Source of the DNA: a virus
Virus record (IMG/VR): IMGVR_UViG_3300037222_000084
Coordinates: 1 to 64,000 of that record
Reading direction: 5' to 3' (one strand)
Length of the DNA: 64,000 nt
Position 1 is the first letter of the stretch; each line of letters starts with the position of its first letter. The position numbers and the translations under genes are program-made. Under the pieces are notes generated by a model that was given only the letters and a program-made list of their open reading frames with translations, was not told the origin of the DNA and did no database searches. Below, one piece after another: positions 10,354 through 62,892 of the stretch.

Positions 10354-12471
10354 ATGAAACTAGCCGCCCACGATAATTCAATGGAGACAAACACAGAGAC
10401 GGTCTCCCAGAACTTTGGAATTGGCAATCTTGCTGTATTGATTGGCCTATTGCGTAAGAATGTGTACCAGCATCGCATTCGTACTCTCGTTCAAGAGTAT
10501 ATGTCAAATGGACGCGATTCTCAACGTGAGGCGAAAACCTCTAAGCGCATGGTCGTGAGTATTCCCAATGAGTTAAGTCCTGTGTTTAAGGTGCGTGACT
10601 TTGGTGTTGGTATCACTCCGCAACGTATGAGCGGCGTATTCCTTCAGTACGGTAACTCAACCAAACGTAAGAGCAACAAAGAAACGGGCGGTTTTGGTAT
10701 CGGTGGTAAATCTGCGTTTGCATACACAGATTCTTTCACTGTTATCTCTATCACTAATGGAGTAAAGCGTACTTATGTCGCACACTTAGGTAGCGCCAAC
10801 GAAGGTAGCATGGATTTGCTGTCTGAAGTTGAGACAACAGAAGAATCTGGTGTTGAAATTCAAGTGGCTATTAAGCCCAATGATTCTCGTGAGTTTCGTC
10901 AGTCTGTATTTCGTGCAATGTATTTCTGGGCAGATACGGAACGCCCAGAGTTACGTGGACTTAGCTCATTGACAGATCAAATCGTCCATAAGCCTGGCCT
11001 TATGATTGGCAAAGAGTTAGAGATCAATGCAAATCCCATTCCAGATTTTATCCAAATGGACTATCACGCAAAATGCCTATTAGTTATTGATGGTATCCCC
11101 TATCCCGTGGGCGAAGATTTGATCGAGAAAATCCCAAATATGGAAAGTCTTTTGGAGCGACTTGTCTCAAAGGCGATCATCCACATTGGCAACGGTGTTA
11201 TCGAAGTCGCTATGTCTCGCGAACAAATTGCTGACAGCCCGTTTACTCTTGAGGCAATGGGCGACTTGGCTAAGACAATGGAGAATAGCCTTAAGTCTCA
11301 CATTACTACGATTTTCAAACAGGCTAAGACCAATGCTGAATGGATTAAGGCATTCAAAGAACTCTCTAAGTTTGCGAATGTTGACGATTATTCTAAGTTT
11401 GGTGACTATTCGATTGAGCGTAACTCAATCCAGTCAACGAAGTTTGCAGACATTGAATGCACACACGTTAGCCTTCGCACCAAGCGACGCGCTAAGAATG
11501 CCTCGCTAGAGCGTGAGACTGGACGTTTCATCACGCTGGATAACGTTGACCACGTATTCGTTTGTGATCTAACTGAGCCAGTAGTGACTCAAAATAAGAG
11601 AATGCGCGAGTACATGGAGCGCACGAATCGCATGTCAATGATGCTCATAAATGCGACAGAGAAGAAAATCGCAGACCCTAAATGGGTACGCCCTGCGCAA
11701 GTATCTGGACAGCCTTTAGTTATGGCTCCCATGATTGTGTCTCTGACATTTAAGGACAGCAAGAAGGTGTTGGCAAAAATCACTGCCGACTTCAACGCTA
11801 AGAACCTGTCTACGCTGCCCTATACGCCCACTGTGCGTATTCCGAAGGCTAAGCGTGATAGGACCAAAGAGATGTTCACGATGCACGAGAGCACTGGTAG
11901 TGGCAAATCACCAAAGACTACCACCATTGAGACTGTGCAAGCTACCTCAGATATGTATTACTACATTCCGTTCAAGCAGTACGACAAATTCGAGAATGAA
12001 CTCAACGACTTGTTCCATTATATGGATAAACAAAAGATTACACTATGCGCTATGACTGAGGATAGTATCAGTATGGTACAGGGTTGCAAACAGTTCAAGT
12101 CGTATACGGAATGGAAAACCAATTTTAAGCCAGATGCTAAAACGCTGGCACGCATGAAGGGCTCTAAGGCAAAGAACTGTAAGCATGTGAATTTGCTCAA
12201 GAGATCGAAAGAAGCTATCAAGGATAAGCATGTGGCACTGATGTTGCAAGAGTACAAGAACAACGTGATTGAGAGCGACATTGTACCAAAAACGATTTTG
12301 GATTGGTGTAAAGACGATCTGGCTCATTTTGTGGCAGAAGATGAGAAGTTGACAAAGCTTCTGAAAGAAGTATATCCTTTAGTTGGCGCATTGGAAAACG
12401 CTTACAACGTTACCACTGAGCATGTGGATGAATTGATTGTGTATATTAACGCTAAAAGCAAAGGGAGATAA
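10354..12471 (+). CDS. rIIA: rIIA-like protein (GHKL ATPase N-terminus)
   Basis: 705 aa. A GHKL ATP-binding fold is clear: N-box QEYMSNGRDSQRE (47-59), G1 RDFGVGIT (81-88) and G2 GGFGIGGKSAF (112-122). Length and the neighbouring rIIB-like gene match T4 rIIA, a membrane-associated protein linked to lysis inhibition and exclusion by lambda Rex. The C-terminal two thirds have no recognised domain. An AAGGAG site precedes the start. Confidence 0.8.
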   Translation: MKLAAHDNSMETNTETVSQNFGIGNLAVLIGLLRKNVYQHRIRTLVQEYMSNGRDSQREAKTSKRMVVSIPNELSPVFKVRDFGVGITPQRMSGVFLQYGNSTKRKSNKETGGFGIGGKSAFAYTDSFTVISITNGVKRTYVAHLGSANEGSMDLLSEVETTEESGVEIQVAIKPNDSREFRQSVFRAMYFWADTERPELRGLSSLTDQIVHKPGLMIGKELEINANPIPDFIQMDYHAKCLLVIDGIPYPVGEDLIEKIPNMESLLERLVSKAIIHIGNGVIEVAMSREQIADSPFTLEAMGDLAKTMENSLKSHITTIFKQAKTNAEWIKAFKELSKFANVDDYSKFGDYSIERNSIQSTKFADIECTHVSLRTKRRAKNASLERETGRFITLDNVDHVFVCDLTEPVVTQNKRMREYMERTNRMSMMLINATEKKIADPKWVRPAQVSGQPLVMAPMIVSLTFKDSKKVLAKITADFNAKNLSTLPYTPTVRIPKAKRDRTKEMFTMHESTGSGKSPKTTTIETVQATSDMYYYIPFKQYDKFENELNDLFHYMDKQKITLCAMTEDSISMVQGCKQFKSYTEWKTNFKPDAKTLARMKGSKAKNCKHVNLLKRSKEAIKDKHVALMLQEYKNNVIESDIVPKTILDWCKDDLAHFVAEDEKLTKLLKEVYPLVGALENAYNVTTEHVDELIVYINAKSKGR

Positions 12472-54829: not shown

Positions 54830-55372
54830 ATGAAACTGATTCCTTTTAGAACAAACAATTACACGTCGGATACCCACTTCGCAGTAGACGATGACGACTT
54901 TGACTTGGTTTCAAAATCCCAATGGCGCTGCAAGTGTAATACTGGCTCGAACCATGTCACTCCGCAATACCACGTATCCAGAAAAGCTACGGCTGAAGAA
55001 AAGAAAAACGGAGCGCCAACAGAAATATCTTTGCATCGTTTTGTGATGGGCGTAGGATTAAAATATGCCAAAAAAGATGAAGAGGTTGACCACATCAACA
55101 GAAACCAGTTCGACAATACAAAGGCAAATCTCAGAATCTGTACCAGGCATACGAATCAAAGGAATAAAGGCAATAATTCTAGAGTGGGATTTGGCCTGTG
55201 GGGAGCTACTTTCAATAAAGCTCTGAAAAGAGATAAAAAATGGCAAGCTAATTTCCACATAAAAGGGAAAACCTATATGGTAGGGTATTTTGCCACAGAA
55301 AAAGAAGCCCATGAACGTGCCGCTACGCGTTATGAAGAAATTACAGGAAACAAGCCTCGAATAACTTTGTAG
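54830..55372 (+). CDS. HNH homing endonuclease with AP2 domain
   Basis: 180 aa. The HNH core is EISLHRFVMG, VDHINRNQFDNTKANLRICT and HTNQRNKG. Residues about 115-170 form an AP2-type DNA-binding domain (GLWGATFNKALKRDKKWQA, GKTYMVGYFATEKEAHE). This is a standard mobile phage endonuclease, probably a recent free-standing insertion between unrelated genes. Confidence 0.88.
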   Translation: MKLIPFRTNNYTSDTHFAVDDDDFDLVSKSQWRCKCNTGSNHVTPQYHVSRKATAEEKKNGAPTEISLHRFVMGVGLKYAKKDEEVDHINRNQFDNTKANLRICTRHTNQRNKGNNSRVGFGLWGATFNKALKRDKKWQANFHIKGKTYMVGYFATEKEAHERAATRYEEITGNKPRITL

Positions 55373-55401: not shown

Positions 55402-55479
55402 TTAGTAGGTAAGAACTCCTGCCGATATGATAGCGCAGGAAAACATTCAAATGGCATAGGATATTTGCCAGGAGATACA

Positions 55480-56271
55480 ATGATCTATTTAAACGGTAAT
55501 CCCGTTAATACCACTCTCTTCCCTGACAACACCAGTCAAGTATGGAAGATACCCACCCTCGAAATTCCAGACACCAATTGGGTCCACGTAAAATGGGACT
55601 TTTCGCATGAAGGCGAGTTTATCCAATTGGCCCAGCTTAAACAATTGCTCGATAAACGCGGTTTTCGTGCCGCATTGCGTCTTAGCTACCTGCCCTATGG
55701 CCGTCAAGACAAAGAAGTTTCAAACGACGCCACTTTCGCGCTTCGCACTTTCAACAAATACATAGACTTTATGGATTGGGACGAAATCATCGTAATGGAC
55801 CCGCATAGCTCCGTAATCATGGACTATGTTCGTAATGTTCGGGCCGTATATCCTATCCAAGAACTCGAAAAGACACTAGCGCATACGGTTTCTACTTTGG
55901 TCTGCTATCCCGACAAAGGCGCACTCGAAAAGTACACTAAAGTGTATCGCAGCATCGTTGAAGACGAATTCATCTATGGTGAAAAGGTCCGCGATCAATC
56001 TACTGGAAATATTACAAGTTATCAATTAATCGGCAACCCCAAAGGCCACAGTGTCCTCATTGTTGATGACATTTGCGACGGCGGTGCCACATTCAAGCTT
56101 CTTGCCAAAGACCTATTGGCAGCAGGAGCTACGGAGGTAAATCTTTTTGTAACCCATGGAATTTTCTCACGAGGTCTGAGAACGCTCCAAGAATCAGGAA
56201 TTAAACGCATATTTACTCAAGATGGCGAAGCTAGTACCCATCAAGATCAAATCACTTATAGGAGATTATAA
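55480..56271 (+). CDS. PRPP synthetase-like (Prs or Adps)
   Basis: 263 aa from ATG 55480 after CCAGGAGATAC. YLPYGRQDKEV (about 69-79), MDPHS and the PRPP-binding loop VLIVDDICDGGATF (about 192-205) identify the ribose-phosphate pyrophosphokinase family. It is some 50 aa shorter than host Prs. Partnered with the NAMPT-like gene, it would supply PRPP for nicotinamide salvage. In the described NARP1 phage pathway the homologue instead pyrophosphorylates ADP-ribose. Sequence alone does not tell which. Confidence 0.88.
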   Translation: MIYLNGNPVNTTLFPDNTSQVWKIPTLEIPDTNWVHVKWDFSHEGEFIQLAQLKQLLDKRGFRAALRLSYLPYGRQDKEVSNDATFALRTFNKYIDFMDWDEIIVMDPHSSVIMDYVRNVRAVYPIQELEKTLAHTVSTLVCYPDKGALEKYTKVYRSIVEDEFIYGEKVRDQSTGNITSYQLIGNPKGHSVLIVDDICDGGATFKLLAKDLLAAGATEVNLFVTHGIFSRGLRTLQESGIKRIFTQDGEASTHQDQITYRRL

Positions 56272-56272
56272 C

Positions 56273-57763
56273 GTGAAAAATTTAATGAAAAGCCTACCGA
56301 CTACAGTCCTCTGCGATTTCTATAAAATTGCACACCGTGCAATGTACCCAACTGGAACAGAAGTGGTTTATTCCACCTGGACACCGCGAGCCAGTCGCAT
56401 GAAAGGCATAGATCAAGTTGTTGCCTTCGGCATGCAAGCCTTCATCAAGACCTACTTGATTGATTTCTTTGACACAAACTTCTTTGGTCGAGAAAAGTCC
56501 GTTGTAGTCGCTGAATACAAACGATTGATTTCAGCCACTCTTGGAGACCCCAATCCAGAGACCAAACACATCGAAGACCTTCACGATCTTGGCTTTTTGC
56601 CACTTTCAGTTAAAGCTCTCCCAGAAGGAACTCTTGTTCCGCTGCGCGTACCGATGATGACCCTCCAAAACACAGACAAACGGTTTTTCTGGTTAACAAA
56701 CTTCGTAGAATCTTTGGCTTCTTGCGAGTTGTGGCAACCCACTACCAGCGCGACTATTGCGCGTGAGTACCGCAAGATCATGGACAAAGCAGCAATGGAG
56801 ACGGTTGGCGACACTGGATTCGTAATGTTCCAAGGTCACGATTTCTCTATGCGCGGCATGTCTTCTCTGCAATCCGCAGTTTCTTCTGGCATGGGCCACC
56901 TGCTGTCATTCGTTGGCACAGACACTATTCCAGCAATTGTTGGAGCAGAAGTGCTCTACGGCGCAGATGTGACGAAGGAACTCGTTGGAACATCCATTCC
57001 AGCCACAGAACACTCAATCCAATGCACTTACGGCGATGACCTGAAATACTTGGAGCGCATGCTCTCAGTGGTTCACCCAAATGGCTTCGTTTCCATCGTT
57101 TCTGATGGTTATGACTTTTGGGAAGTTATTCGCAGCGTGCTCCCTGCTCTCAAATCCAAAATCATGGCTCGTAGCGGTGGACCCGTTGGAGACCGTGTGG
57201 TTATTCGCCCTGACTCTGGCGACCCTGTGCTGATAGTTTGCGGCGATCCAGATGCAACTCCTGGAAGCCTTGAGTATAAAGGCGCTGTAGAGGCTCTATG
57301 GGACATTTTCGGCGGGACCGAATCCTCTAAAGGATACAAAGTCCTCGATTCCCACATTGGCCTGATCTATGGTGACGCTATTACTCTCCGTCGTTGTGAA
57401 GAAATTTCCGAACGGCTGAAAGCCAAAGGTTTCGCCTCGATCAACTGCGTGTACGGCATTGGTAGCTACACCTATCAGTACAACACCCGTGACACCTTCG
57501 GATTTGCTCTTAAGAGCACATTAGCCGTGATAAACGGCGATGAAAAGCAGATTTTCAAAGATCCGAAAACTGATAATGGCATCAAGAAGTCACAGAAAGG
57601 CCGTGTGGTCGTTCTTAAGGATGGCAATTCACTCAAGTTCGTCGATGGCCTTGGACTCAACGATGTCGTAGAAGGCGACCTGTTGACAGAAGTGTTCCGC
57701 GACGGTAAACTGTTGGTGGATCAAAAATTCTCCGAAATCAGAGCACGGCTCGCAGGACAGTAA
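56273..57763 (+). CDS. nadV: Nicotinamide phosphoribosyltransferase-like (NadV or Namat)
   Basis: 496 aa with a GTG start after TAGGAG; a downstream ATG at 56285 is an alternative. CDFYKIAHRAMYP at the N-terminus, FQGHDFSMRGMSS, GTSIPATEHS, RPDSGDPV (about 311) and YGIGSYTYQ are NAMPT signatures, and the length fits. It converts nicotinamide plus PRPP to NMN, or in NARP1 joins nicotinamide to ADP-ribose pyrophosphate to give NAD+. It starts 1 nt after the Prs-like stop. Confidence 0.93.
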   Translation: MKNLMKSLPTTVLCDFYKIAHRAMYPTGTEVVYSTWTPRASRMKGIDQVVAFGMQAFIKTYLIDFFDTNFFGREKSVVVAEYKRLISATLGDPNPETKHIEDLHDLGFLPLSVKALPEGTLVPLRVPMMTLQNTDKRFFWLTNFVESLASCELWQPTTSATIAREYRKIMDKAAMETVGDTGFVMFQGHDFSMRGMSSLQSAVSSGMGHLLSFVGTDTIPAIVGAEVLYGADVTKELVGTSIPATEHSIQCTYGDDLKYLERMLSVVHPNGFVSIVSDGYDFWEVIRSVLPALKSKIMARSGGPVGDRVVIRPDSGDPVLIVCGDPDATPGSLEYKGAVEALWDIFGGTESSKGYKVLDSHIGLIYGDAITLRRCEEISERLKAKGFASINCVYGIGSYTYQYNTRDTFGFALKSTLAVINGDEKQIFKDPKTDNGIKKSQKGRVVVLKDGNSLKFVDGLGLNDVVEGDLLTEVFRDGKLLVDQKFSEIRARLAGQ

Positions 57764-58251
57764 TGAAAACCGATCAATTCGCATTTTTCTATGGAGGAGC
57801 CTTAAGTCAATGGGCTCCTTCCCCATTCACTCTGGACGAAGTGGAGTATTCTACTGCTGAACAGTATATGATGGCTATGAAGGCTGATTATTTTAATGAT
57901 CAAGATACCAAAGCCAAAATAATGGCCACTGATAGTCCTTCTGAGCAGAAGTCACTAGGCAGGATGGTTAAGAATTTCAATGCAGAAGCTTGGAATGCTG
58001 TTTCTAGGGGATTCGTGTACAAGGCGAACATTGCCAAATTCACTCAAAACGACTGGTGTATGAAGGAACTGGAACGAACCGGAGACCTAGAAATCGTTGA
58101 GGCTAGTCCGTATGACCGAATCTGGGGCATTGGCCTTGGAACTAGCGACAAACGAGCACTTGACAAGACCCAGTGGCTTGGTACAAACTGGTTAGGTGAG
58201 ACTTTGATGAAAGTACGGAAGGACCTACGTGAGCAAAACAGTCGAGTGTGA
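57763..58251 (+). CDS. NADAR (YbiA-like) family protein
   Basis: 162 aa, TAATG overlap with the NAMPT-like gene. FAFFYGGALSQWAPSPFTL, EYSTAEQYMMAMKADYF, KFTQN and PYDRIWGIGLG are the order and motifs of the YbiA/NADAR fold. Members remove N-glycosidic groups from riboflavin intermediates, and several reverse ADP-ribosylation of guanine in DNA. Its place among NAD/ADP-ribose genes favours the ADP-ribose role. Confidence 0.88.
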   Translation: MKTDQFAFFYGGALSQWAPSPFTLDEVEYSTAEQYMMAMKADYFNDQDTKAKIMATDSPSEQKSLGRMVKNFNAEAWNAVSRGFVYKANIAKFTQNDWCMKELERTGDLEIVEASPYDRIWGIGLGTSDKRALDKTQWLGTNWLGETLMKVRKDLREQNSRV

Positions 58252-58423
58252 TTGTATGATGTGCCAAAAACCACTAGAAAACTACGATCCACAGATGTGC
58301 TGTGGCGGGTTCGATTGCGGGTGTATGGGCCTTCCTACTAACCCTCCTATTTGTTCTGAAGAATGCTGGGATGCGCTTATTAAAAGGAATAGTGATGGGC
58401 AAAGTAACGACAATAAAGGGTAA
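58229..58423 (+). CDS. Small Cys-rich protein
   Basis: 64 aa with a GTG start inside the NADAR 3' end. It has ten Cys residues, including CDCMMC and CCGGFDCGC, so one or two zinc sites are likely. It overlaps both neighbours and belongs to the NAD/ADP-ribose operon by position. Confidence 0.5.
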   Translation: MSKTVECDCMMCQKPLENYDPQMCCGGFDCGCMGLPTNPPICSEECWDALIKRNSDGQSNDNKG

Positions 58424-58838
58424 TCTCTTTGATGCTCCAGAAGGCTCCATAATCATTCATGCGTGCAATACTAAGGGCGTATGGGGATCTGGCATAGCCA
58501 GGGAGTTCGCCAAACGGTTCCCTAAGGCCCGTGACATTTACGCTCAAACTTGTCAAGAACAAGGACCGTCTCTTATTGGGAAATGTCTTCTAATTCCAGC
58601 TGGGAGCCACGTTATTGGCTGCTTATTCACTTCAAAAAACTATGGACAATTCGTAGATTCTCCTGCTAAGATATTAACAGCAACCAGATTGGCCATTGCT
58701 CATTTGATTCTTCAAAATGAGAGCAAGTTGCCCATGCATATGTGCAAGATAAATGCTGGATTGTTCAACGTTCCTTGGCCTAAAACCAAGGCAATATTGA
58801 AAGACGCCGATGTTGAATTTGTAGTTTACGATTTTTAG
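58395..58838 (+). CDS. Macro domain protein
   Basis: 147 aa. ATG 58395 is chosen with AAAAGGA upstream; the frame extends back to 58302 only through the previous gene. GKVTTIKGNLFDAPEG and HACNTKGVWGSGIA (22-35) form the ADP-ribose pocket, and INAGLFNVPW the second loop. Closest in style to the Poa1/ALC1-like macro group that hydrolyses ADP-ribose 1''-phosphate or removes ADP-ribose from proteins or DNA. Confidence 0.88.
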   Translation: MGKVTTIKGNLFDAPEGSIIIHACNTKGVWGSGIAREFAKRFPKARDIYAQTCQEQGPSLIGKCLLIPAGSHVIGCLFTSKNYGQFVDSPAKILTATRLAIAHLILQNESKLPMHMCKINAGLFNVPWPKTKAILKDADVEFVVYDF

Positions 58839-60342: not shown

Positions 60343-61155
60343 ATGAAAGTAGCTATTTGCAATTTACAATCTGCTGATTTCGAAGAAACACTGTTAAAAT
60401 CACTAGTTAACACTGGTTTTGCGGTATTGACGCATCATGGCATTGATTTTCAGCTTATAAAGGATTCACAGACAGAGTGGCGTAAATTTTTCAAACGCGA
60501 GAAGCTATACAAGAACCTTTTCATTAACGGCAACGACTCCAACATGGGCTATAAGGGCATGGGCTCAGAAAAAGCTGTTGGAGCTAAAGCAGCCGACTTG
60601 AAAGAATTCTTCCACTACAAAATTGGCGAAGAAATCCCTGAAAATGCTCAAGGCCCCACAGAAAAACTCTTTGTTCAACTCGAAGGCCTGGGAATGCAAA
60701 TCCTTGAAGTGTTGGATAAAACCAACGGCACTACCTATCGAAACGACTGCTTTGGTAGCTCTAAAACCCTGTTCCGAGCGTTGTACTATCCTGCAATTGA
60801 TTTTGAAACCGCAGACGGCGCTGTACGTGCTGCTGCCCACGAAGACATTAACCACATTACCATGCTAGTCGCCGCAAGTGCTCCTGGACTTGAGGTTCAA
60901 GACAATTACGGCAAATGGCATGCAGTGCCACACGAAGACAATTCGGTCGTAGTCAATATTGGCGATATGTTGAAATTAGCCAGTAATGGACTGTATAAAT
61001 CTACAACCCATCGCGTAACTGGTGGCGATTCTAAGTCTGACCGCATCAGTATGCCGCTTTTTATTCACCCGCACAGCTTCGTCCGTTTGGCTCAAGGGAT
61101 CACCGCTGGACAATTTTTAACCGACCGCTTGAATACTATTTACGGCAAAAAATGA
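60343..61155 (+). CDS. 2OG-Fe(II) oxygenase (IPNS-like)
   Basis: 270 aa after CCTGGAGGCCGT. The iron ligands are H166, D168 (AHEDINHIT) and H223 (STTHRV), with R234-x-S236 binding 2-oxoglutarate. TGFAVLTHHGI at the N-terminus and DMLKLASNG match the isopenicillin N synthase-like group. The substrate is unknown: candidates are an amino acid, a small metabolite or a modified nucleotide. Followed by a transporter-like gene with a 4-nt overlap. Confidence 0.9.
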   Translation: MKVAICNLQSADFEETLLKSLVNTGFAVLTHHGIDFQLIKDSQTEWRKFFKREKLYKNLFINGNDSNMGYKGMGSEKAVGAKAADLKEFFHYKIGEEIPENAQGPTEKLFVQLEGLGMQILEVLDKTNGTTYRNDCFGSSKTLFRALYYPAIDFETADGAVRAAAHEDINHITMLVAASAPGLEVQDNYGKWHAVPHEDNSVVVNIGDMLKLASNGLYKSTTHRVTGGDSKSDRISMPLFIHPHSFVRLAQGITAGQFLTDRLNTIYGKK

Positions 61156-61415: not shown

Positions 61416-61747
61416 AGTTATCACTAATTTTAGGCGACAAACAGCACACTGTGACTTGGGACAAAGATCTTAGCGATTTCCCCAATGTGGTCACGTATGA
61501 CGGCAAGTACTGGGAATGGGTTTGTTGGGACGATGATCCAAATGGCCTGGTTGATAAGGTATTGACGTTTGGTATTACTAGAGAATCAGCCCTGCCTGTG
61601 AACATGTTTGGAGTGCTGTTCCCAGTTCCCAATTTAACCTATATGTTTCAACTTGATACGGCCACTGGACCATGTGAGTGCGGTGCAAAATTTACTTCCT
61701 TTCCAGATCAACATATGATATTATGTCCTAAATGGAGTAAAACATGA
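61412..61747 (+). CDS. Hypothetical protein, 111 aa
   Basis: GTG start (GTGA overlap) after CAAGGAAAAC. Beta-rich, with C-E-C and a final C-P-K forming a possible zinc site near the C-terminus. Function unknown. Confidence 0.55.
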   Translation: MKLSLILGDKQHTVTWDKDLSDFPNVVTYDGKYWEWVCWDDDPNGLVDKVLTFGITRESALPVNMFGVLFPVPNLTYMFQLDTATGPCECGAKFTSFPDQHMILCPKWSKT

Positions 61748-62892
61748 AACTACCTATTCTGTACAAGAAGACTTCCACGGGCGCAATTCAGTCGTGGAGA
61801 ACTTTTGTGATCGACCAACGTGGCTCTGCCACAGCCGCTGTTATCGTCACGGATTTTGGACAAGTGGAAGGCAAGATTCAAACCACCCAAGATTTGATCC
61901 AAGAAGGCAAGAACATTGGTAAAAAGAACGAAACTACTCCTCGCCAACAGGCAGAGTTAGAGGCTAAAGCTAGCTGGGAAAAGAAGAAGAAAAGCGGATA
62001 CGTCGAATCTATTGGCGATGCCATGGATAACAAGACCGACGACCTTATCGAAGGTGGCGTTCTGCCCATGTTGGCCAAAAAGTTCTCAGAGCAAGCCAAT
62101 AAGATCAAATATCCCTGTTTTACTCAGCCAAAACTAGACGGCATTCGCTGTGTTGCCATCGTCAAAGACGGTGCCTGTACCCTTTGGTCTCGTACCCGCA
62201 AACAGATAAAATCCTGCCCACACATCGTTCAAGAGCTAGAAGCAGCATTCGAGACTAGAGATATTATCCTAGATGGTGAGCTTTATAACCACGATTTTAA
62301 GTCAAATTTCGAGCACATCGTACATTTGGTTCGCCAAGACAAAACCCCAGACCCACAGCATACTGACGTGCAATACCATGTTTACGACGTGATTGAGGAT
62401 AAGCTATGCGGTCCCACTTTCGCTGATCGCACTGAAAACCTCGATATTATATTTGCTGCCTACGAGTTTTATAGCATCAAGCAAGTTGATACGGAAGAAG
62501 TCGAATCTGAAGATCAAGTAATGGAGTTTTTTGAGAAATTTCGTGCAATGGGCTATGAAGGCTCCATGCTTCGTAATTACGACTCAAAATACGTCAATAA
62601 ACGCTCTAATGATCTTCAAAAAGTCAAAGAATTCGATGATGGTGAATTCAAGGTCACTGGTATCAAAGAGGGCCGTGGTAAATTGGCCGGTCACGCCATT
62701 TTCATTTGCGTTGACAACAAAGGCGACGAATTTGAGGCTAAACTCAAAGGCGACACGTCCAGACTTAAAGAGTATTTTGACGACCATTCCCTGTGGAAGG
62801 GCAAACAGTTAACCGTACAATATCAAGGGCTTACTGGTAAAAATAAAGTTCCACGTTTCCCTGTTGGCGTGGCGATTAGAGACTATGAATGA
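61744..62892 (+). CDS. ATP-dependent DNA ligase with WGR-like N-terminus
   Basis: 382 aa. Residues 1-90 resemble a WGR domain (LYKKTSTGAIQSWRTF). The nucleotidyltransferase motif I is K130-L-D-G-I-R, followed by LDGELYNHD (motif III), EGSMLRNYDSKY (motif IV) and an OB-fold with LTVQYQGLT. Seals nicks in phage DNA replication or repair. Domain make-up matches ligases of some large myoviruses. Confidence 0.9.
   Translation: MKLPILYKKTSTGAIQSWRTFVIDQRGSATAAVIVTDFGQVEGKIQTTQDLIQEGKNIGKKNETTPRQQAELEAKASWEKKKKSGYVESIGDAMDNKTDDLIEGGVLPMLAKKFSEQANKIKYPCFTQPKLDGIRCVAIVKDGACTLWSRTRKQIKSCPHIVQELEAAFETRDIILDGELYNHDFKSNFEHIVHLVRQDKTPDPQHTDVQYHVYDVIEDKLCGPTFADRTENLDIIFAAYEFYSIKQVDTEEVESEDQVMEFFEKFRAMGYEGSMLRNYDSKYVNKRSNDLQKVKEFDDGEFKVTGIKEGRGKLAGHAIFICVDNKGDEFEAKLKGDTSRLKEYFDDHSLWKGKQLTVQYQGLTGKNKVPRFPVGVAIRDYE

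Follow-up and report, generated by a model that had tools for sequence, protein, structure and literature searches.

Architecture of the locus

We analysed 64,000 nucleotides (nt) of viral DNA (positions 1 to 64,000 of IMG/VR record IMGVR_UViG_3300037222_000084; hereafter the window), in which five genes lie close together on the plus strand at 55480-58838. In order, they encode Adps (ADP-ribose pyrophosphate synthetase), Namat (nicotinamide ADP-ribose transferase), a NADAR-domain protein, a small Cys-rich protein and a macro-domain protein resembling yeast Poa1p. An earlier note on this DNA, made from the sequence alone, had described these genes as a salvage pair for nicotinamide adenine dinucleotide (NAD+) followed by two ADP-ribose hydrolase families, all overlapping. 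Matches in Pfam, PHROGs and NCBIfam placed the five genes where the note had them and in the same order, but the overlap does not extend to Adps and Namat, which are adjacent with a spacing of 1 nt. Namat most probably begins at GTG 56273, leaving 1 nt after the Adps stop codon, and not at the upstream ATG 56222, which makes the long Adps/Namat overlap that goes with that first ATG unnecessary; Namat also has its own ribosome-binding site (RBS)-like sequence. Further on, the Namat stop codon and the NADAR start codon share 1 nt (TAATG), the NADAR and Cys-rich genes overlap by 23 nt, and the Cys-rich and macro genes by 29 nt when the latter starts at ATG 58395. This tight packing implies that the five genes form one transcription unit. 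A promoter and terminator scan returned about as many matches as in shuffled sequence.

Adps and Namat belong to NARP1

To place the window in context we used a phage and viral set of 130 non-redundant Namat-type and 67 NAMPT-type loci, de-duplicated at 85% Namat identity, and a GTDB genome scan that gave 80 bacterial Namat loci (49 non-redundant), making a comparison total of about 180 other phage and bacterial NARP1 loci. In phmmer searches the window Adps scored 95 bits against the validated Adps of Paenibacillus foliorum, 83 bits against that of SPbetaL1 and 36 bits against Escherichia coli Prs, and in the Adps tree a branch with support 97/92 joined it to both validated proteins, with E. 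coli Prs outside. The window Namat matched Pfam NAPRTase (8e-42), had 9w5w and 9w5x as its top matches in the PDB (658 bits, 9w5w best) and shares 60% identity with SPbetaL1 Namat. The feature that discriminates Namat, which uses ADP-ribose pyrophosphate, from NAMPT, which uses phosphoribosyl pyrophosphate (PRPP), is a clamp helix with the motif GSX-phi-X-phi-X-phi-TRD (PMC12774641). The window clamp GSYTYQYNTRD fits this motif exactly, and the GG.LLQ..RD that NAMPT-type phage enzymes carry instead is absent from it.

The locus itself points the same way, since Adps is found no further than 2 kb from the Namat-type gene in 122 of the 130 viral loci and near the NAMPT-type gene in only 2 of 67. 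A NadM-like nicotinamide mononucleotide (NMN) adenylyltransferase occurs in 50 of the 67 NAMPT-type loci, and none was present among the window neighbours read beside Adps and Namat. The clamp motif, the Adps branch and the pairing of the two genes together place the pair in NARP1 at the level of sequence, activity aside. The residue-level and phylogenetic tests thus support the assignment of the Prs-like and NAMPT-like pair that the earlier note had proposed.

The macro protein resembles Poa1p rather than DarG

The AlphaFold2 model of the macro protein had a pLDDT (predicted confidence) of 96. Its nearest solved structures were all yeast Poa1p (Z 23.7-24.9, 1.2-1.4 Å, 38% identity over 146 residues), followed by TARG1 and DarG (Z about 18-20), with other macro classes ranked lower still. 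At the positions mutated in Poa1p as H23A, S30A and F152A the window protein has His, Val and Phe, and Asn26 is also kept. By this modelled likeness, our best guess is that the protein acts as a hydrolase on some small derivative of ADP-ribose, at its 1'' position.

A DarG-like antitoxin mimic was considered but is not supported. The window macro scored 34.9 bits against the DarG model, for which the curated cut-off is 250 and above which no match was found. NARP1-linked macros do not conserve Lys80, the catalytic residue of DarG, and the window alignment at this position is uncertain by one residue. Because of the low score, the unconserved lysine and the Poa1p-like fold, erasing of thymidine-ADP-ribose by this protein is unlikely.

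The NADAR and Cys-rich proteins

The idea that the hydrolases erase DarT marks fits the NADAR protein but not the macro protein. NADARs reverse guanine ADP-ribosylation (PMC11543638, PMC11125620), and the glutamate and lysine named as catalytic in PMC11543638, E33 and K40 in the window protein, are invariant across 16 aligned NADARs; the sequence-based alignment did not fix the place of the third such residue, which belongs to the last strand. The small Cys-rich protein gave no tblastn match in phages and had no homologue among other NARP1 loci, and we therefore take it as a lineage-specific passenger.

Macro and NADAR genes recur at phage NARP1 loci

The comparison loci were gathered with Adps and Namat queries only, so that there was no selection for macro or NADAR genes. 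Of the 130 loci, 21 had a macro gene no more than 2 kb from Namat. Macro genes numbered 0.68 per 10 kb in the first kilobase from Namat, compared with 0.052 at 4-8 kb, a 13-fold difference (binomial p=8e-8) that is to be read with the provisos that the loci resemble the window query and also supplied the training sequences for the macro profile, and that de-duplicated loci were counted as independent. Unsupervised clustering of all same-strand neighbours gave macro as the commonest gene after Namat and Adps. Among ten divergent macros, Pfam found eight, at, above or close to its curated cut-off, and missed two, which were caught by PHROG 335 or by the profile built for this analysis.

The macro gene sits either between Adps and Namat or just past Namat, frequently with 4-nt overlaps; in locus L083 it overlaps Adps and Namat by 4 nt each. 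Cultured phages show both placements: the order is Adps-macro-Namat in the Vibrio phages Pontus and F88 and Adps-x-Namat-x-macro in the Pakpunavirus Kat, all three with Namat-type clamps. On well-supported branches alone, a tree of 55 macros required at least five changes for the label 'between' and at least four for 'downstream', which indicates that the arrangement probably has several origins, macro genes having joined NARP1 loci in independent recruitments. NADAR was rarer but also recurrent, being adjacent in 4 of the 130 phage loci besides the window. One of these arrangements (L001) reads Adps-Namat-NADAR-NDT-like-macro, where NDT-like denotes a nucleoside 2-deoxyribosyltransferase-like protein (PF15891). 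Such NDT-like genes lie inside NARP1 operons, either separating NADAR from macro or separating Adps from Namat (L001:9950-10423, L005:7343-7810, L219:7072-7539).

The recurrence of macro and NADAR genes lends support to the single counter-defence module that the earlier note had put forward. The presence of the two hydrolase genes varies even between close relatives.

Partner genes of bacterial NARP1 loci

Counted within 3 kb, NrtR-type NUDIX regulators were present in 25 of the 49 bacterial loci (e.g. L372:2457-3149), which suggests regulation by NAD+ or an ADP-ribose metabolite. Other partners were calcineurin-like phosphoesterases (9/49), ADP-ribosylglycohydrolases of the ARH type (8/49; L315, L317, L343, L346, L358, L376 and two more), NADAR (6/49) and macro proteins (4/49). 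The RNA 2'-phosphotransferase KptA/Tpt1 was found in six (L353, L347, L337, L345, L376 and L342), and the KptA-bearing loci also have a calcineurin-like phosphoesterase. Examples of gene order are NrtR-Adps-NADAR-KptA-phosphoesterase-Namat (L353) and NrtR-Namat-NADAR-ARH-phosphoesterase-Adps (L358). Among the 130 phage loci, only one (L165, Adps-Namat-KptA) has KptA nearby. Placed beside NARP1, KptA and a phosphoesterase might connect RNA repair with the recycling of NAD+. The common theme of these loci is that enzymes releasing or generating ADP-ribose derivatives stand beside a pathway that rebuilds NAD+. With the models built for this analysis, no KptA, ARH, NrtR, NDT-like or HAD-like partner was found in the 86.9 kb fragment of the window phage. 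The HAD-like protein (PHROG 1238, with DxDxT and DDR motifs) occurs within 3 kb of Namat at 9 phage and 10 bacterial loci (e.g. L168:7565-7993, L372:4066-4461 and L346:6461-6862).

Coordinates and neighbouring genes

Table 1. Features of the five-gene operon (window positions).
Feature	Positions	Strand	Basis
RBS-like AGGAGA, first gene	55470..55475	+	Sequence; 4 nt ahead of ATG 55480
Adps, 263 amino acids (aa), Prs-like family	55480..56271	+	PHROG 619, E=7e-62
Adps phosphate-binding loop VDDICDGGATF (Prs: VDDMIDTGGTL)	56062..56094	+	Alignment
RBS-like AGGAGA for Namat, within the Adps 3' end	56260..56265	+	Sequence
Namat, 496 aa from GTG 56273	56273..57763	+	Pfam, NCBIfam and PDB matches; clamp motif
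Namat selectivity-clamp helix motif GSYTYQYNTRD	57461..57493	+	Exact fit to GSX-phi-X-phi-X-phi-TRD (PMC12774641)
NADAR-domain protein, 162 aa	57763..58251	+	Pfam NADAR, 2e-49
NADAR catalytic pair E33, K40	57859-57861, 57880-57882	+	Alignment with residues in PMC11543638
Small Cys-rich protein, 64 aa, GTG start, probably zinc-binding	58229..58423	+	PHROG 19268, 1e-13
Poa1p-like macro-domain protein, ATG 58395	58395..58838	+	Pfam Macro, 2e-11
Macro H23	58458-58460	+	Numbering from GTG 58392
Macro N26		+	Numbering from GTG 58392
Macro Phe matching Poa1p F152	58764-58766	+	Numbering from GTG 58392

The terminase of the window phage is nearest to that of Myxococcus phage Mx1 (31% identity). The operon is closely preceded by a gene for an HNH-type homing endonuclease (54830-55372), a possible agent of the spread of the operon. 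Downstream are a 2-oxoglutarate-Fe(II) oxygenase gene (60343-61155), which follows Namat in about 8 related phage loci as well, and an ATP-dependent DNA ligase gene (61744-62892), a relative of which occurs close to NARP1 in about 20 of the 130 viral loci. Another locus, L024, carries a phage-encoded GroEL-like chaperonin (10546-12318 of the locus; 74546-76318 of its genome, minus strand).

A proposed ADP-ribose recycling operon

Host-defence NADases with TIR, SIR2 or SEFIR domains and ADP-ribosyltransferases consume NAD+ and yield nicotinamide together with ADP-ribose, either free or conjugated. We propose that the window carries a NARP1 operon extended with enzymes that release ADP-ribose from such conjugates, and we give this reading a probability of roughly 0.56. 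In the proposed scheme the NADAR protein would cut ADP-ribose from guanine bases of nucleic acids or from related N-glycosides, and the Poa1p-like macro protein would free it from small molecules modified at 1'', such as ADP-ribose-1''-phosphate and O-acyl- or other 1''-linked signals. Adps would then pyrophosphorylate the freed ADP-ribose, and Namat would join the product to nicotinamide, so that NAD+ is restored. Free ADP-ribose is the compound that NARP1 uses (PMC12774641), and in a mycobacteriophage the enzyme RyDEP, encoded within the NARP1 operon, cleaves cyclic ADP-ribose (cADPR) signals and feeds Adps and Namat (PMC13232231). By the same logic, the NADAR and Poa1p-like macro proteins may act as suppliers of ADP-ribose from other conjugates. 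That both hydrolases supply the substrate of Adps would also be more economical than a separate function in erasing marks.

Several observations weigh against this proposal. The Cys-rich gene is left without a role in it, and Ser30 of Poa1p is replaced by Val in the window protein. A nearby macro gene is lacking in 109 of the 130 NARP1 loci, and no KptA was found in the 86.9 kb fragment of the window phage (86,893 bases of an incomplete genome). Moreover, canonical NAMPT genes have a macro gene within 2 kb at 4 of 67 loci and a NADAR gene within 1 kb at 7 of 67, and for macro the difference between Namat and NAMPT loci is weak (p=0.044). Since NAMPT makes no direct use of ADP-ribose, the link may be with conflict over NAD+ in general, and NADAR in particular appears tied to NAD+ salvage generally and not to NARP1 alone. 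At two NAMPT-type loci (L273 and L248) macro and NADAR genes stand directly upstream of the PRPP-type NAMPT gene, so that these hydrolases are not exclusive to NARP1.

Because the hydrolases also accompany PRPP-type salvage, NARP1 and the two hydrolases might instead be independent anti-defence tools, clustered as early genes without metabolic coupling: NARP1 would act against NADases and NADAR against toxins that ADP-ribosylate guanine, DarT1 for instance, whereas the macro protein would destroy an ADP-ribose-based immune signal. The activity of NADARs on guanine and the variable presence of both hydrolases are consistent with this alternative, which we consider the less likely one. Macro genes are concentrated in the immediate vicinity of Namat and can even sit between Adps and Namat, overlapping both, which goes beyond a loose defence island, and a phage NADAR with hydrolase activity gave E. 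coli no protection from DarT1 (PMC11125620).

Clean-up after tRNA repair, in which the ADP-ribose 1''-2'' cyclic phosphate made by a KptA-type 2'-phosphotransferase is opened by a phosphodiesterase and stripped of its 1''-phosphate by the macro protein before NARP1 recycles the ADP-ribose, would suit the structural closeness of the window macro to Poa1p, itself an ADP-ribose-1''-phosphate phosphatase. It would also suit the KptA and phosphoesterase genes of the bacterial loci and the KptA gene of phage L165. With KptA missing from the window fragment and near a single phage NARP1 locus, and with Poa1p substrates stated in PMC12846349 as not found in bacteria, this explanation is improbable for the window. 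Ordinary PRPP-dependent nicotinamide salvage through NMN, with NADAR as an N-glycosidase of the riboflavin pathway, would agree with the NCBIfam names (ribose-phosphate diphosphokinase, nicotinate phosphoribosyltransferase and ribofla_fusion) and with the residual PRPP activity of Namat (PMC12774641). The Namat clamp, the grouping of Adps with validated Adps and the lack of an NMN adenylyltransferase among the neighbours speak against it, and we rejected it, on the clamp motif and the Adps phylogeny, as very improbable.

Relation to known systems

The window resembles the NARP1 systems of SPbetaL1, Bas63 and P. foliorum in both enzymes, in their order and in the clamp motif for ADP-ribose pyrophosphate. 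Those systems consist of two genes, whereas the window adds three more that are packed together with the pair, of which two belong to ADP-ribose hydrolase families. A parallel to the proposed recycling operon is RyDEP of mycobacteriophage DyoEdafos (PMC13232231), likewise a releaser of ADP-ribose inside a NARP1 operon; RyDEP, however, is a RyR-domain cADPR glycosidase, and in the window the unrelated NADAR and macro folds would take that role. A macro protein of Pseudomonas phage Adele, PaAdele_020, lies downstream of NARP1 and, according to a paper published in December 2025 (PMC12846349), has Poa1p-like residues and the same proposed function in ADP-ribose release. That suggestion was a speculation on a single phage, in a passage that mentions no NADAR, and Poa1p Ser30 corresponds to Thr in Adele and to Val in the window. 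The macro of phage Kat, a relative of Adele, lacks an INxGLF motif that the window macro has. Yeast Poa1p itself shares its fold and His23, Asn26 and Phe152 with the window macro, and differs at Ser30 and in not coming from a viral operon.

As for NADAR, the fold and the E/K pair are those of DarT1-NADAR antitoxins and of gp30.3 of T4-type phages; unlike the antitoxins, the window gene has no DarT beside it and is partnered with NARP1. NADAR genes near NadM/NadV in phages were noted in 2022 (PMC9503650), a similar neighbourhood of viral NAD+ salvage, but one that depends on PRPP through NadV/NadM, in contrast to the ADP-ribose-dependent NARP1. NARP1, the macro idea in one Pseudomonas phage and the coupling of RyDEP with NARP1 have thus already been published. 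In a literature search largely confined to papers outside subscription journals, we found no report that macro genes associate systematically with NARP1, that NARP1 occurs with NADAR and macro together, or that bacterial NARP1 loci contain KptA, ARH and NrtR genes.

A wider and more tentative view, which we hold at somewhat less than even odds, is that NARP1 forms the core of a general ADP-ribose salvage common to phages and bacteria. Such a core would repeatedly recruit interchangeable releasers (macro, NADAR, ARH, NDT-like and RyDEP proteins) and producers such as KptA, in bacteria under the control of NrtR-type regulators. NAD+ consumed by defence signalling, ADP-ribosylation or RNA repair could then be recovered whatever the conjugate. 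Phage NADAR and macro genes are widespread, and their recurrent placement at NARP1 points to a specific question about substrate, namely which conjugate is used and whether it becomes NAD+. If the recycling proposal is true, phages would regain NAD+ from several different products of immunity or toxic marks. The role of bacterial NARP1 has been described as open (PMC12774641), and it would gain a plausible physiological function in the recycling of ADP-ribose from RNA repair or ADP-ribosylation.

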